Shown: piece after piece, positions 24,058 through 45,011 of the stretch
Layout of the letters: every line of letters begins with the position of its first letter
How positions within the stretch are numbered: position 1 is the first letter of the stretch
Source: a virus
DNA: 47,412 nt
Strand: one strand, 5' to 3'
Virus record (IMG/VR): IMGVR_UViG_3300017727_000021
Span: 1-47,412 of that record
Notes under the pieces: model-generated
What the model saw: only the letters and a program-made list of their open reading frames with translations
Databases searched by the model: none
Told to the model about the DNA's origin: nothing
Translations under genes and position numbers: made by a program

Positions 24058-24086
24058 TTGACAAACCTTGCCAGATCCTCTATAAT
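24058..24086 (+). promoter_or_regulatory. Consensus sigma70 promoter TTGACA-17-TATAAT
   Basis: Perfect -35 (24058-24063) and -10 (24081-24086) with a 17-nt spacer, directly behind the gp23 terminator. It would drive the small early genes from 24119. Confidence 0.92.
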
Positions 24087-25162: not shown

Positions 25163-25191
25163 TTGACTTTCTACGCTATATACTGTATAGT
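25163..25191 (+). promoter_or_regulatory. Sigma70 promoter TTGACT-17-TATAGT for the methyltransferase operon
   Basis: -35 at 25163-25168 and -10 at 25186-25191, predicted start about 25198, 17 nt before ATG 25215. It suggests early or middle expression of the methyltransferase and the CmoA-like gene. Confidence 0.85.
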
Positions 25192-25214: not shown

Positions 25215-26360
25215 ATGTTCAAACCCTACACCATGAAAGATGTGATGGACGCATCTGCTCAGAAAAAATTCAAAGTCATATCTACTTTTGCTGGTGGTGG
25301 TGGTTCATCTACTGGTTATCGTCTTGCTGGTGGCGAAGTGTTATGCGTCAACGAGTTCGTTGAAGAAGCGTGTAATACCTACCGCGAAAACTATCCGATG
25401 ACACACATAATCCCTGATGATATCAAGACACTGACTGGCAAGGACTTCCTTGATGCTACGGGTCTTGAGGTGGGTGAGTTGGATATCCTTGATGGTTCCC
25501 CTCCATGCTCTGCATTCTCTGTGTCCGGTTCTGCCTTCACTGATAAGGGTAATCACTTTGATGGGTTTGGTAAGACCAAGAACTACTCTGACGGTAAGAT
25601 TGTTGATAACATAGAAGACCTATTCTTTGAGTTTCTGCGTGTCGCAGATGAGATCAGACCAAAGGTCATCATTGCCGAGAATGTCAAGGGTCTGACCATT
25701 GCCGAAGCAAAGAAGTATATGAACAAGATACTCAATACCTTCGAGGCCATTGATTACAGTGTAACCTATGAGATCCTAGATTCTCGTTACTACGGTGTCG
25801 CGCAGACTCGTGCACGGGTATTCTTTGTCGCAGTCCGTAATGACATCTGTGACAACATTGGTATCAACTTCCTCAACCTACACAGTATGGTATATCCAGA
25901 CAAACTGAAAGAACAACTACCACTAGGTGATGCACTTGAAGGTCTGGAGTATGATGAAGAAGAACGTCAGTGGTTGATTGACCAATGGAAAGAAACCTCA
26001 TACTATAAGATGACCAGTATCAATATGCCAGATGATCCTGAGAAGAACCTTGACGGATATGACTATCATCCTACAGGTAAGTCACACTTCAATGTCAAAC
26101 GATCATCACGTTTCAAACCTGCACCGACACAGACTGCTATGGGTAATCAAGCAAAGACCGCAGGCGCAGTACACTTTTCTGAACAAAGAAAGTTGACAAT
26201 TGGTGAATTAAAGCGTATAATGGCTCTACCCGATGACTATAAACTGACGGGTACTTGGAATCAGAAAGCAGAACGCATTGGTCGTATGGTCACACCGTGG
26301 GTTCTCAAACAGATTGCTGAAACAGTAAACGAAAATATCTTGGAGAAAATAAGTGCCTGA
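25215..26360 (+). CDS. C5-cytosine DNA methyltransferase with atypical motif X
   Basis: 381 residues. Motif I FAGGGGSSTGYRLAGG (25-40) binds the SAM-type cofactor. Motif IV SPPCSAFS has the catalytic Cys C98. Motif VI is ENV (155-157), motif VIII QTRARVF (197-203), and motif IX is LTIGELKRIMALPDDYKLTG. Motif X, normally GN-x-V, reads G356-R357-M358-V359. The Asn is near-invariant in this family and faces the cofactor's transferable group, so Arg is striking. The target-recognition region (about 210-310) does not reveal the target. It overlaps the CmoA-like gene by 8 nt. A ribosome site is weak. The enzyme may transfer carboxymethyl rather than methyl. Confidence 0.9.
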   Translation: MFKPYTMKDVMDASAQKKFKVISTFAGGGGSSTGYRLAGGEVLCVNEFVEEACNTYRENYPMTHIIPDDIKTLTGKDFLDATGLEVGELDILDGSPPCSAFSVSGSAFTDKGNHFDGFGKTKNYSDGKIVDNIEDLFFEFLRVADEIRPKVIIAENVKGLTIAEAKKYMNKILNTFEAIDYSVTYEILDSRYYGVAQTRARVFFVAVRNDICDNIGINFLNLHSMVYPDKLKEQLPLGDALEGLEYDEEERQWLIDQWKETSYYKMTSINMPDDPEKNLDGYDYHPTGKSHFNVKRSSRFKPAPTQTAMGNQAKTAGAVHFSEQRKLTIGELKRIMALPDDYKLTGTWNQKAERIGRMVTPWVLKQIAETVNENILEKISA

Positions 26361-27030
26361 TTTTACATTCGCTCATCGTGCAGAGGGGTTTGATACCCAC
26401 ATTGAGCAGTCTATCCGTAACTACGGATCACTACATGACGATGTGGTTAACATGTCGCGTTACTTTGTTGAGAACGATACAAATGTCTATGATATCGGTT
26501 GCTCAACAGGTAAGACCCTGAAGGCAATGGCAGAACAGAACAATGAGTTTGCCCCCAGTGCCTCCTATGTTGGTATAGAGATTGCTGATGGGTTTGTCAA
26601 CGAGATGCGTGAAACTGAGGCATCTATGGAAAACCTATCTCTGCTTCATGAGGATATTCGTAACTTTGACATGGTCAATGCCTCTCTGGTCACATCACTG
26701 TTCACTCTTCAGTTCATGCCGATGAGTGATCGACAGTATGTTATTGAGAACATATATAATGCACTCCGTGAAGGTGGTGCATTCATCTTCGGAGAGAAGA
26801 CCTATGCTAGTGATGCAAAGACCCAAGATATCATGACATTTATGTTTTATGACCATAAACGTAAATATTTTGATGAGAAGGATATTATGGAGAAGGAAGT
26901 AACTCTTCGTAATATGCTAAAACCAAACACATGGGGCGAGATTCAATCTATGCTCTATGATGCTGGTTTCAGGACAATACAGCCATTCTGGCAAAACTTC
27001 CAATTTGTTGGTGCAGTCGCCATCAAATAA
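26353..27030 (+). CDS. CmoA-like carboxy-SAM synthase family protein
   Basis: 225 residues from GTG 26353 (GGAGAAAA upstream). By recollection of E. coli CmoA, colinear matches include VYDIGCSTG (45-53), IEIADGFVNEMRE, FTLQFMPMSDRQYV (117-130), IYNALREGGAFIFGEK, DHKR (167-170) and F-x-NFQFVGAVAIK at the end. CmoA converts SAM and prephenate to carboxy-SAM, used by CmoB on tRNA. The hallmark SVPGY of CmoA is SIRNY here, and the Arg I recall as contacting the Cx-SAM carboxylate (R199) aligns with E182. So family membership is good, but activity is unproven. Overlap with the DNA methyltransferase suggests it supplies that enzyme's cofactor. Alternative: an ordinary methyltransferase. Confidence 0.7.
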   Translation: MPDFTFAHRAEGFDTHIEQSIRNYGSLHDDVVNMSRYFVENDTNVYDIGCSTGKTLKAMAEQNNEFAPSASYVGIEIADGFVNEMRETEASMENLSLLHEDIRNFDMVNASLVTSLFTLQFMPMSDRQYVIENIYNALREGGAFIFGEKTYASDAKTQDIMTFMFYDHKRKYFDEKDIMEKEVTLRNMLKPNTWGEIQSMLYDAGFRTIQPFWQNFQFVGAVAIK

Positions 27031-28638: not shown

Positions 28639-30141
28639 ATGAGTCTACCTAATACCATAACAGTCGGTCTGAAAGACCATTCGATGATGCTGGTTGATTG
28701 TAACCAGCACCAACTCCAAGAACTGAGAGACTACTTCTCGTTCTTTGTGCCTGGCCATAAGTTCATGCCTGCTTTCAAATCAAGAAAGTGGGACGGTAAA
28801 ATCAAACTGTTCAATCAGATCACACGTGAACTAAACACTGGTCTGTACGAACACCTCAAGAAGTTCTGCTCTGATCGTATGTACCCTCTCCAGTTACAGG
28901 AGACTGATTACGGACACCCCGCACAGACTAACCATGTCGCACATCAGAATCTAGTCAAGTTCCAGAGTGAACTGGATCTACCCTTTGATCTACGCGACTA
29001 CCAGTACGATGCTGTCACCCACGGTATAGAGAAGAAACGGGCTGTCCTGTTGTCCCCTACAGGTAGCGGTAAGTCGTTTATCATCTATAACCTACTACGA
29101 TGGTATCTTGACTGCGTAACAAACTTTGTGGACAACTTCGATAAACAGGTTCTGATTGTTGTTCCGACAACAAGTCTGGTAGAACAGATGTACAAAGACT
29201 TCGAGGATTATGGGTATGATGTAAAGGAAAATGTTCATCGTATCTACAGTGGTAAAGACAAGACCACCGACAAACCTATCATCATATCTACATGGCAGTC
29301 CATCTACAAGTTTCCGAAGGAATGGTTCGAGACTATGGGTTGTGTATTTGGAGATGAAGTCCATTTATTCAAGGCAAAGTCTCTGTCAGGTATCATGAAC
29401 AAGTGTGTCAATGCTGAGTATCGTTTCGGTACTACGGGTACACTAGATGGCACCGAGACGAACAAACTGGTACTGGAGGGACTCTTCGGGCCTGTACGAC
29501 GAGTGACCATGACCAAGGACTTGCAGGAGAAGGGCACCCTTGCAAAGATAGACATCTCCATCCTACTACTGCGTTACCACAACGATATATGTCATATGCT
29601 GAAGGACGCAACCTATCAGGAAGAGATAGACTACATTGTGACCAACGAGAAACGCAACAGACTTATAAGTAACCTTGCGTTAGACCAGACAGGCAACTCT
29701 CTGGTCTTGTTTCAGTTTGTAGAGAAACACGGCAAACCCCTGTTTGATATGATCAAGGACAAGGCGGGTGACCGTCCGGTATATTATGTGTCAGGAGAAG
29801 TAGAGGCATCAGACCGCGAACAGATTCGTGGTATCGTAGAGGGACAGAAGAATGCAATCATTGTTGCTTCATTGGGAACATTTTCTACTGGGATTAATAT
29901 TAGGAACTTGCATAACATTGTTTTTGCTAGCCCTTCCAAGTCTCAAGTCAAGGTTCTCCAATCAATCGGACGAGGACTGAGAAAGTCTGACGATGGATCA
30001 GTAACCAAACTGTATGACATTGCGGATGATCTGCACATACGGAAGCATAAGAACTTCACGCTGCGACACAGTGCTGAACGAATCAAGATATATACTAAGG
30101 AGCAGTTTCCCTACAAGATACATCAAATTGATTTGAAATGA
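28639..30141 (+). CDS. uvsW: DNA/RNA-DNA helicase UvsW
   Basis: 500 residues (T4 UvsW is 503). Residues 1-90 form the substrate-binding domain (QLQELRDYFSFFVPGHKFMPAFKSRKWDG). Superfamily 2 helicase motifs follow: SPTGSGKS (139-146), DEVH (239-242), TGTLDG (266-271) and SIGRGLRK (442-449). In T4 it unwinds R-loops and branched DNA, shutting down origin replication and promoting recombination-dependent replication. Codon use matches its neighbours. It overlaps the next gene's ATG by 4 nt. Confidence 0.95.
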   Translation: MSLPNTITVGLKDHSMMLVDCNQHQLQELRDYFSFFVPGHKFMPAFKSRKWDGKIKLFNQITRELNTGLYEHLKKFCSDRMYPLQLQETDYGHPAQTNHVAHQNLVKFQSELDLPFDLRDYQYDAVTHGIEKKRAVLLSPTGSGKSFIIYNLLRWYLDCVTNFVDNFDKQVLIVVPTTSLVEQMYKDFEDYGYDVKENVHRIYSGKDKTTDKPIIISTWQSIYKFPKEWFETMGCVFGDEVHLFKAKSLSGIMNKCVNAEYRFGTTGTLDGTETNKLVLEGLFGPVRRVTMTKDLQEKGTLAKIDISILLLRYHNDICHMLKDATYQEEIDYIVTNEKRNRLISNLALDQTGNSLVLFQFVEKHGKPLFDMIKDKAGDRPVYYVSGEVEASDREQIRGIVEGQKNAIIVASLGTFSTGINIRNLHNIVFASPSKSQVKVLQSIGRGLRKSDDGSVTKLYDIADDLHIRKHKNFTLRHSAERIKIYTKEQFPYKIHQIDLK

Positions 30142-31823
30142 ATATATCATTAACGGAGAAGAAACCGCACGGACTGTTGCTGGGTGGTTTTACTTGTCCG
30201 ACAGAAAATACATCAAATGAAAATGTCAATAAAGAGATCCATTGGTCGGAACGATATGCGGCAGCATTAAATCGTGAGGGATACCATAAGACTCTAATCC
30301 AAGGTATCTTCTATGGACTAGAAACCTACCGTAGTTTTGGTAACCATAGAATCGCAACGCACATCCGTAAGCGTGGATGGGATGTCGAGTGTATTGATTA
30401 CGGCATATTATTTACGCACGACGAACTCATATATCTGATAGATCAAAGAATAACCGAAGACACCCTGTTTGTCGGTTTCAGTATGATGTTTTCTACTATG
30501 GCAACCGACAGGTTGTTGTGGATTACTGATCACATCAGAGAAAACTATCCTTGGGTCACTATCGTGGCTGGTGGTCAAAAGACATGGGTCGTGACTTGTG
30601 TTGAGGCAGACTACTACATTACGGGAAATGGGGAGTATGCTATGGACGCACTACTCGACCATCTCTATCGTGGTGCCGCCGAACCCATATCACATAAGAC
30701 TCTCAGTAACGGCGGTAAACTTATCACCGCACATAATAGTTATCCCTGTTTTCCTAAGAGAGATGCCAGTATCTCGTTTGAAGAACGAGACTTTATCAGA
30801 CCCAACGAGACGATCAATATTGAGTTTGCTCGTGGATGTATCTTTGCCTGTAAATATTGTTCATTCCCACTAGTTGGTATGAAGGAAGACACCACCCGTG
30901 ATGAGGACAGCATACACCAAGAGATGTTGGAACACTATGAGAAGTGGGGAACAACCAACTACTATGTCACCGACGATACTATAAACGATTCCAAGGACAA
31001 GATCGCAACGATTGCTAGAGCCTGTCGTAGATTACCATTCCAGACTCAGTTCGCAGGGTATGTCAGGGCAGACCTTCTGATCACGCACGGTAAAGAGACT
31101 TGGCAAGACATGTGTGACATGGGACTGACCATACACCACTATGGTGTGGAGACCTTTAACCACAAGGCTGGCAAGACTGTGGGTAAGGGTTTCAAACCTG
31201 AGATACAGAAGAAGGGTCTATTAGAAGTAAAGGAGTTCTTCAACGAACACTCTCCCAACTTCTACGCCGGGTCAATCAGCATGATTGCGGGTCTACCCTT
31301 TGAGACCTTTGAGTCACTGGATGCGTCCAAGAAGTGGATGAACGAGAACTGGTCAGAACACATAGTCCACTTCTTACCTCTAGCATTAGGTAAACCTGAC
31401 GATGAACAGGCGGACGAAATCGACTGGAAAGTCTATAATAACTTTATGAACTATGGGTATACATACTCATATGATGTTCCGTATATTGAGAATGATGATG
31501 TCCGCCGACAGGTAGATACTATGATAGCTGAGAAGGCCAGTAATAAGAATCGCGAGAATAATAAGTGGAACTTCTGGGTTCATCCGAGTGGTGATTACGA
31601 CTTTATAGATATGATAGATTGGGTACGTGAGTATTCTGTTGGACGAGCTGAGAATAAGATGATGCCGGCTGGGTGTTGGCAAACCAACTTTGTTCATGCG
31701 GAGACTTGGGAAGATCCCAAACAAGGTTCTCTATATTACAAAACAGGTTACAAAGATATGCCCTATAAAGGCATGATAAATATCATACGAGAGTATAAAC
31801 AAAAGAAGTTGAGACATGGCTAA
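30138..31823 (+). CDS. B12-binding-like radical SAM protein
   Basis: 561 residues. The N-terminal ~200 residues look like a Rossmann-type cobalamin-binding domain (HIRKRGWDVECIDYG, LFVGFSMMFSTMATDRLLWI, VTIVAGGQKTW, ADYYITGNGEYA), though I do not see the DxHxxG cobalamin His motif. The radical SAM core has the CxxxCxxC cluster in ARGCIFACKYCSFP (C234, C238, C241), then YVTDDTIN, RADLL and HYGVETFNHKAGKTVGKG. Such enzymes methylate unactivated carbons or make other radical modifications. It is an accessory gene in a metabolic-looking block between uvsW and gp55. The substrate cannot be told. Confidence 0.85.
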   Translation: MNISLTEKKPHGLLLGGFTCPTENTSNENVNKEIHWSERYAAALNREGYHKTLIQGIFYGLETYRSFGNHRIATHIRKRGWDVECIDYGILFTHDELIYLIDQRITEDTLFVGFSMMFSTMATDRLLWITDHIRENYPWVTIVAGGQKTWVVTCVEADYYITGNGEYAMDALLDHLYRGAAEPISHKTLSNGGKLITAHNSYPCFPKRDASISFEERDFIRPNETINIEFARGCIFACKYCSFPLVGMKEDTTRDEDSIHQEMLEHYEKWGTTNYYVTDDTINDSKDKIATIARACRRLPFQTQFAGYVRADLLITHGKETWQDMCDMGLTIHHYGVETFNHKAGKTVGKGFKPEIQKKGLLEVKEFFNEHSPNFYAGSISMIAGLPFETFESLDASKKWMNENWSEHIVHFLPLALGKPDDEQADEIDWKVYNNFMNYGYTYSYDVPYIENDDVRRQVDTMIAEKASNKNRENNKWNFWVHPSGDYDFIDMIDWVREYSVGRAENKMMPAGCWQTNFVHAETWEDPKQGSLYYKTGYKDMPYKGMINIIREYKQKKLRHG

Positions 31824-33613: not shown

Positions 33614-34049
33614 AAAAAATATCGGATTCACTGCGTCTGCCTTTGATCTGCTTCATGCGGGTCATATCGCAATGCTCAAGGAGGCAAAGACTCAGTGTGA
33701 CTACCTTATCGTGGGTCTACAGACTGATCCATCCTTGGACAGGCCTGAAAAGAACGCGCCTATCCAGTCTATGGTAGAACGGTACATCCAACTGTCAGCC
33801 ATCTCTATGATCGATGAGATCATCCCCTATCGTACCGAGACTGATCTGATGGATATCCTCAAGGTCTATCCTATCAATGTGCGTATCATTGGTGAGGAGT
33901 ATAAGGACAAAGATTTTACAGGGAAGCAATATTGTATTGACAATGGCATCGAAATGTATTATAATAACCGCCAACATGACTTCTCTACGAGTAGTCTGCG
34001 TGAGCGTATCAGTGTCTCGACTAATGGTCAACACCCACTATTCAATTAG
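33597..34049 (+). CDS. Cytidylyltransferase-like protein (TagD-like)
   Basis: 150 residues. GFTASAFDLLHAGHIAMLKEA has the HxGH nucleotidyltransferase signature (H20-A-G-H23), and FSTSSLRERI is the ST-x-x-LRxRI motif near the end. These define the glycerol-3-phosphate/phosphocholine cytidylyltransferase group, which joins CMP to a phosphorylated alcohol. Middle RIIGEEYKDKDFTGK is also family-like. It may activate a small molecule for surface or nucleotide modification with the neighbouring genes. The start lies inside a repeated intergenic element. Confidence 0.85.
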   Translation: MSSTKLKNIGFTASAFDLLHAGHIAMLKEAKTQCDYLIVGLQTDPSLDRPEKNAPIQSMVERYIQLSAISMIDEIIPYRTETDLMDILKVYPINVRIIGEEYKDKDFTGKQYCIDNGIEMYYNNRQHDFSTSSLRERISVSTNGQHPLFN

Positions 34050-34052
34050 TAC

Positions 34053-34081
34053 TTGACAAACAGTGACTGAACCTGTATAAT
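34053..34081 (+). promoter_or_regulatory. Consensus sigma70 promoter TTGACA-17-TATAAT before gp55
   Basis: -35 at 34053-34058, -10 at 34076-34081. It shares the run ATTAGTACTTGACAAACA, including the upstream gene's TAG, with the gp46 promoter at 36657. Confidence 0.92.
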
Positions 34082-41810: not shown

Positions 41811-42264
41811 GTGGGATAGAGCGCACCTTGAGGTCGCAGAAACCTACGCGCAGTTATCTACTGCGAAACGGAGAAAGGTCGGTTGTGTTATAGTAAAGGA
41901 CAACCGTATCATTTCTATTGGATATAATGGTATGCCTAGCGGTTGGGACAATGAATGTGAATATGAGGGGGACTATACCTCTCGTGCACCTGTACCCAAT
42001 CTAATCACTAAGAAGGAAGTTCTACATGCGGAAGCGAATGCACTCACGAAAGTTGCAAGGTCAACGGAATCGTCGGAGGGTGCAGTTCTCTACTGTACCT
42101 GTGCCCCTTGTATCGACTGCTCCAAACTCATCTACCAAGCCGGAATCGCAAGGGTAGTATATAAAGACAACTATCACACGGACGAGGGATTGACATTCCT
42201 AGAGAAGTGTGGTATAATCGTCCAAGACGGTACCGAAATGAAAACCAACTGGGTAAAGTGTTAA
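41803..42264 (+). CDS. cd: dCMP deaminase
   Basis: 153 residues from TTG 41803, giving LNKWDRAHLEVAETYAQLST at the expected family start; an in-frame ATG at 41764 would add 13 unlikely residues. Zinc and catalytic residues are H75-A-E77 (VLHAEANAL) and C103-x-x-C106 (CAPCIDCSKLI). It converts dCMP to dUMP to feed dTMP synthesis. It is interesting beside a phage cytosine DNA methyltransferase because it influences the dC pool. TAATG overlap with gp62. Confidence 0.93.
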   Translation: MNKWDRAHLEVAETYAQLSTAKRRKVGCVIVKDNRIISIGYNGMPSGWDNECEYEGDYTSRAPVPNLITKKEVLHAEANALTKVARSTESSEGAVLYCTCAPCIDCSKLIYQAGIARVVYKDNYHTDEGLTFLEKCGIIVQDGTEMKTNWVKC

Positions 42265-44242: not shown

Positions 44243-44986
44243 ATGAAAGCATACATGTTAGCAAATCTAGATGATCCTATATCTGTGAGATATACGGAAA
44301 CAGCACTAGAATCTTGGGCAAAGCAATATATCCTTGACATTGAGGTGATTCAATGTTACACTCCTGATACGATTGCTGATCTTGAACCTCTATACAACTG
44401 GAAACCCCTTCGACACAAACTACAAAAGGGATCTATGAGTAGTCCTAGTGAGAGGGCTGGAGATATATCACACTGGCAACTCTTACATAAACGAGCAGAA
44501 GGTGGTTCACGGTTCTATGTGTTAGAACATGACTCATTTCTACTTGATGCTGATGAATTTGAACGACAGTTTGATTTCACTATGGAACACAATCTGGCAT
44601 ATGCTAATCATGGACTGTTCATGTCCTGTTACTCGGTGTCCGAAGATGCTGCAAAGTATATGTCGGACTTGTTATTGAAACTAAATTTTCCACTGAACGG
44701 TGGCCCTTTTGGGTGCATGGAGAGACTGGTCAAGACCTATATGTCTGACAATCCCTCAAATAATCCATTTCGATGGATGTGTCATCACCCCAATGCACAG
44801 TATGTTGACGTAGGTGATTCATCCGAATCACTAAGAGACTGTTACAACGGTTGGTCAATTCCCAGTACTCCGTTCACTCTTGCGTCTACTCAGGTGATCT
44901 CTAAGTCTATGGGTATCACACAGAACCACGATGGCATGACAAAATTGCCTTGGGAGAGAAGCGACCATTTCAAAATTATTGATTGA
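44243..44986 (+). CDS. Putative glycosyltransferase (family 25-like)
   Basis: 247 residues. AGDISHWQLLHKRAEGGSRFYVLEHDSFLLDADEF has the SH-x-x-x-W...LEHD order of LPS glycosyltransferase family 25 (usual LSH...LEDD). The start MKAYMLANLDDPISVRYTETALESWA is also GT-A-like. It might modify host surface polysaccharide or a virion component. The site is D/H-altered (LEHD at 94-97), so activity is uncertain. It precedes the polymerase promoter. Confidence 0.6.
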   Translation: MKAYMLANLDDPISVRYTETALESWAKQYILDIEVIQCYTPDTIADLEPLYNWKPLRHKLQKGSMSSPSERAGDISHWQLLHKRAEGGSRFYVLEHDSFLLDADEFERQFDFTMEHNLAYANHGLFMSCYSVSEDAAKYMSDLLLKLNFPLNGGPFGCMERLVKTYMSDNPSNNPFRWMCHHPNAQYVDVGDSSESLRDCYNGWSIPSTPFTLASTQVISKSMGITQNHDGMTKLPWERSDHFKIID

Positions 44987-45011
44987 CAATACCCGCACAA
45001 TCGTGTATAAT
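44983..45011 (+). promoter_or_regulatory. Consensus sigma70 promoter TTGACA-17-TATAAT before gp43
   Basis: -35 at 44983-44988, overlapping the upstream stop; -10 at 45006-45011. Predicted start near 45018 gives a short leader with TGAGGT before the ATG. Confidence 0.92.

Follow-up and report, generated by a model that had tools for sequence, protein, structure and literature searches.

A natural pathway that places carboxymethyl groups in DNA was described for Synechococcus phage S-B43 by Yang et al. (Nat Commun, 7 Dec 2025; PMC12783734) and is a CmoX-CmoA-CmoY system. As reported there, SpCmoA is an active synthase that makes carboxy-SAM (Cx-SAM), with a kcat reportedly about 10-fold that of its E. 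coli counterpart, and SpCmoX puts 5-carboxymethylcytosine (5cxmC) in DNA at GC sites in vitro and blocks HhaI. Arg350 of SpCmoX contacts the carboxymethyl group of Cx-SAM, the only cofactor accepted by the wild-type enzyme. The ligase CmoY attaches glycine, and S-B43 virion DNA contains the glycine amide, 5gcxmC, with 5cxmC undetectable. The same article reports a ParB_N domain partner and 5,615 candidate CmoX sequences, with IMG/VR among the sources. In E. coli CmoA, Arg199 forms a salt bridge with the carboxylate (PMC3663124). The initial annotation of the DNA studied here had regarded CmoB as the only established consumer of Cx-SAM, a view made outdated by the use of Cx-SAM by SpCmoX, and had left it to a literature search whether such a natural system was already described, which the S-B43 report answers.

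The window, that is, the whole stretch of DNA analysed, is a virus record of 47,412 nt, of T4-like type and a fragment of its genome. It encodes the T4-like Gp23 capsid, portal, tail sheath and tail tube proteins, UvsW and UvsY, together with a gp55-like late sigma factor, a clamp and a DNA polymerase. Comparison of portal proteins places it nearest, among named phages, to C48C1 (71%), the Melnitz phages (53%) and the pelagiphages (51%). Between the tail-tube gene and a gene of 350 aa, after which comes uvsY, lie a complete C5-cytosine methyltransferase gene and a CmoA-family gene, both intact and overlapping by 8 nt, as the initial annotation had it. The features of the locus are the following.

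24058-24086, 26193-26221, 33937-33965, 34053-34081, 42190-42218 and 44983-45011, + strand: six perfect sigma70 sites
25163..25191, + strand: possible sigma70-type promoter of the pair, TTGACT-17-TATAGT, 10/12 matches, not above chance for the region
25215..26360, + strand: cmoX, predicted DNA cytosine C5-carboxymethyltransferase of C5-MTase fold, 381 aa, ATG start, intact ORF
25500..25508, + strand: PPC of the SPPC motif, with the catalytic Cys98, by alignment to SpCmoX Cys98
26193..26221, + strand: perfect sigma70 consensus inside cmoX, TTGACA-17-TATAAT, 12/12 matches, candidate cmoA promoter 131 nt before the cmoA start
26283..26285, + strand: codon of Arg357, equivalent by alignment to SpCmoX Arg350 (Asn304 in HhaI), with the function of Arg350 taken from the main text of PMC12783734
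26353..26360, + strand: 8-nt overlap of the cmoX and cmoA reading frames, from both ORFs
26353..27030, + strand: cmoA, predicted carboxy-SAM synthase, 225 aa, GTG start, from family match, identity and AlphaFold2 model
26896..26910, + strand: CmoA Glu182...Arg186, by alignment the reciprocal swap of E. coli Arg199...Glu203

In C48C1, a single hypothetical gene separates the tail-tube paralogue from UvsY downstream. The tail-tube gene of the window is homologous to that of C48C1 (46% identity), and similarity between the 350-aa gene and the C48C1 hypothetical gene was not detectable. Given these two neighbourhoods, the CmoX-CmoA pair looks like an inserted cassette. Elsewhere in the window, a B12-binding/radical SAM protein is encoded at 30138-31823, directly after uvsW and overlapping it by 4 nt; it was considered as a hypermodification partner and set aside, with matches only in ten closely similar viral contigs and none in named phages. 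No ParB_N domain partner was found in the 13 records searched, the window included. Inspection of the window's predicted proteins showed none that resembles CmoB, which agrees with what had been noted for the immediate neighbourhood.

The methyltransferase of the window matches Pfam PF00145 (E 2e-56) and NCBIfam dcm TIGR00675 (164 bits, cut-off 100.65), and its best sequence match among solved structures is 8YF3, SpCmoX with Cx-SAM (phmmer E 7.9e-133, residues 3-379). It is 56% identical to SpCmoX, and its AlphaFold2 model (pLDDT 88.5) has 8yf3 as top PDB match, with TM 0.83/0.94, ahead of HhaI. In the alignment, all nine SpCmoX residues checked are kept: F25, E47, F48, D69, S95-P96-P97-C98 and R350. 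The HhaI sequence behind the Asn304 column served only to confirm the column named in the S-B43 report. Judged by its sequence, the enzyme is an orthologue of SpCmoX, and carboxymethyl transfer by it is predicted from this orthology and the conserved residues. The target-recognition region is 39% identical to that of SpCmoX, so the target motif of the window enzyme may differ.

The best model for the downstream protein is CmoA TIGR00740 (120.6 bits, E 8e-35, below the equivalog cut-off of 193.3), and it scores 213.7 bits against PHROG phrog_4752. It is about 51% identical to SpCmoA and 54% to the CmoA of Synechococcus phage S-CRM01, and the PDB entry that its AlphaFold2 model (pLDDT 81.5) matches best is 4iwn, a structure of E. 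coli CmoA carrying the Cx-SAM cofactor (TM 0.84). In both this protein and SpCmoA, Arg199 (E. coli numbering) is absent, with Glu in its place and Arg at 203, one helix turn later. This E/R pattern occurs in 99/109 CmoA sequences with letters in both columns, and the CmoA of Erwinia phage Yoloswag retains R199/E203. Since SpCmoA is active despite the swap, the swap is no argument against activity of the window protein, and Arg199 neither defines the phage members of the family nor validly excludes them; the E199/R203 signature would escape any search built on E. coli Arg199. We infer that the relocated Arg at 203 binds the Cx-SAM carboxylate. In the main text of PMC12783734, we found no discussion of the swap. 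Formation of Cx-SAM by the window CmoA is predicted from family, fold and orthology.

The association of the two genes was followed across 142 loci: a CmoA gene is present in the locus of 118 methyltransferases with Arg at the column of SpCmoX residue 350, although, as the loci were mostly fetched by similarity and include near-duplicates, these counts show consistency and not frequency. In the same set, methyltransferases with Met (3), Leu (1) or Lys (1) at this column have CmoA in none of their loci. Eight Arg methyltransferases lack CmoA in the locus; they include genes close to a contig end and the one of Yoloswag, which has its CmoA in another part of the genome. The Melnitz methyltransferase, 42% identical to that of the window, has Leu at the 350 column, and no CmoA match was found in the whole Melnitz genome. 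The one exception is a distant methyltransferase from Staphylococcus phage SPbeta-like: it is preceded by a CmoA gene yet lacks the Arg; at this locus (L007:3965-5673) the motif X Asn aligns with Gly and not with Arg, and the CmoA has Ser/Arg at 199/203. The −8 overlap seen in the window recurs in L009, L011, L015, L021, L023, L024, L026, L032 and L038-L041. Some unusual members were also observed: two Endozoicomonas bacterial contigs (L058, L059) carry CmoX with Arg adjoining a divergent CmoA-like gene, the CmoX frame being split into two ORFs in L059, and a 200-kb viral contig (L114, G011:C1:150305-151492) has one in-frame TGA in the CmoX reading frame.

We consider it very probable that the pair makes carboxy-SAM and carboxymethylates cytosines of its own phage DNA. 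The present analysis contributes gene anatomy, orthology, conserved residues and genomic linkage to this reading, while both enzyme activities, the GC specificity in vitro and the HhaI protection come from the S-B43 orthologues; from these, the activity and target motif of the window pair and its protective role in its host are predicted. CmoA would convert SAM and host prephenate to carboxy-SAM, which CmoX, with the motif X Asn replaced by Arg, would bind instead of SAM; Cys98 of CmoX would attack C6 of the target cytosine, and the carboxymethyl group would go to C5. The phage DNA would then carry 5cxmC and gain protection from host restriction; should the phage encode a CmoY-type ligase in another part of its genome, an amine could be joined to the DNA at 5cxmC. 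Supply of Cx-SAM by CmoA to the methyltransferase, and carboxymethylation of DNA against restriction, had been proposed in the initial annotation and are shown for the S-B43 orthologues in the main text of PMC12783734, with the same cofactor-selecting residues present here. The 5cxmC product proposed with them is what SpCmoX makes, but the final base of S-B43 is 5gcxmC. With this reading, the natural pathway, itself recently described, would reach a T4-like phage that is closest, by portal protein, to phage C48C1 and to the Melnitz and pelagiphage group.

A refinement of this reading concerns the product and leaves the enzymes as they are: 5cxmC may be only an intermediate, with CmoY or another ligase elsewhere in the genome capping it with glycine, ammonia or another amine, and we see the case for and against this as evenly poised. 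A CmoY-like gene is present in about 59/132 loci with any of the genes, on either side, placed upstream of CmoX, in the middle of the pair or downstream of CmoA, and these genes include a glutamine-hydrolysing type of about 470 aa. The S-B43 virion DNA, as reported, contains 5gcxmC without detectable 5cxmC (PMC12783734), and the 47-kb record that forms the window is incomplete. Against capping, searches with Asn_synthase and CmoY profiles for an AMP-forming amide ligase found no match in the 47-kb window, in complete S-CRM01 or in complete RN05-S, with the S-B43 positive control matched, and no alternative ligase was found in the window. Since no CmoY was detected in these three, 5cxmC may stay unligated in them. 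We put forward tentatively, as the less probable outcome, that uncapped 5cxmC is the final base in the window phage, S-CRM01 and RN05-S, and that their CmoA binds the carboxylate via the relocated Arg. If true, 5cxmC would be a negatively charged natural base so far unseen as an end product. In RN05-S (L008), CmoA and CmoX adjoin, and in its close relative S-B43 (L002) CmoY intervenes; the two phages form a natural pair in which to compare what glycine capping does.

It is highly improbable that the first gene encodes an ordinary SAM-dependent cytosine methyltransferase beside a CmoA-like gene that is a passenger or acts in tRNA modification (cmo5U). PHROGs and some phage records do label the CmoA family 'tRNA methyltransferase', and extra Cx-SAM could in principle be used by host CmoB, but homologues linked to CmoA nearly always have Arg at the Cx-SAM position while the CmoA-less Melnitz enzyme has Leu, wild-type SpCmoX reportedly accepts only Cx-SAM (PMC12783734), and the genes, with their 8-nt overlap here, are adjacent in many contigs.

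For the carboxymethylation pathway, which we prefer, the transcription of the pair was also considered. The initial annotation had placed both genes behind one sigma70 promoter; the site at 25163-25191 does exist, with 10/12 matches, but promoter-like sites in the surrounding stretch are not above chance (7 found vs 8.0 +/- 3.1 in shuffles), and a perfect site lies inside cmoX. Perfect TTGACA-17-TATAAT sites number six in the window against 0.03 expected, all on the + strand and all with 17-nt spacers. The one at 26193-26221 is also perfect in L010 and, with differing flanking bases, in L085, and is absent in the other relatives. Because it overlies codons of the conserved motif KLTxxELKRIM, the match is partly forced by the protein. 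Its position 131 nt before cmoA means that cmoA may also have its own promoter inside cmoX, with a possible separate transcript.

The target motif was approached through codon-boundary dinucleotides, as observed/expected ratios against synonymous-codon shuffles. GpC is the most depleted of them in the window (0.51), S-B43 (0.36), S-CRM01 (0.63) and RN05-S (0.34), a pattern that hints at GC as the target of the window CmoX. As a test of the motif, this depletion does not separate CmoX phages from others and is suggestive at most: the medians were 0.68 vs 0.80 for 11 CmoX-positive and 13 CmoX-negative T4-like records (p = 0.056, exploratory), phages without CmoX ranged from 0.55 to 1.09, and among CmoX contigs G010 is strongly depleted, like the window, S-B43 and RN05-S (0.34-0.51 for the four), while G012 and G014 show little or no depletion. 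Two specificities may coexist in some phages. Seven loci (L016-L020, L022, L025) have two adjacent CmoX genes belonging to two clades that share about 53% identity, with Arg in both copies wherever both are complete. The target-recognition region differs most between the clades, with identity to the window of 22-36% in clade B and 34-49% in clade A, and the tandem paralogues possibly have different target sites. These loci have one CmoA, and some also have CmoY. In contig G002 (L182, L183), which carries clade B CmoX, the dinucleotide strongly depleted at codon boundaries is CpC (0.52) rather than GpC; clade B possibly has a different target motif.

Compared with known systems, the window pair shares with the E. 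coli CmoA/CmoB tRNA cmo5U pathway the CmoA fold and the predicted synthesis of Cx-SAM, and differs from it in the lack of CmoB, in DNA cytosine as the predicted substrate, and in the change of Arg199 to Glu with Arg one helix turn on. The engineered M.MpeI N374K resembles CmoX in that a C5-MTase becomes able to use Cx-SAM through a basic residue at the equivalent position, according to PMC12783734, but its target is CG and it is not a natural system. S-CRM01 likewise has a two-gene cassette in a complete genome without a CmoY match, annotated as methyltransferase and DNA-cytosine methyltransferase; there, CmoA precedes CmoX and the pair lies beside clamp-loader genes. The S-B43 system has orthologous CmoX (56%) and CmoA (about 51%), with the Arg, the SPPC motif, the cofactor residues and the CmoA E/R swap in common. 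It differs in its order, CmoA-CmoY-CmoX against CmoX-CmoA in the window, where CmoY is missing, the target-recognition region has diverged and the cassette sits among late T4-like genes. Points that we did not find in the main text of PMC12783734 are the E/R swap, the CmoY-less genomes, the tandem CmoX genes and the sigma70 consensus inside cmoX. The gains are small but testable, and consist of two complete CmoY-less genomes, the CmoA E199/R203 signature and the tandem CmoX paralogues. The mechanism in the window is not new, since the system had been reported for a related cyanophage in December 2025, and the pair is another member of that published system, with small variations.
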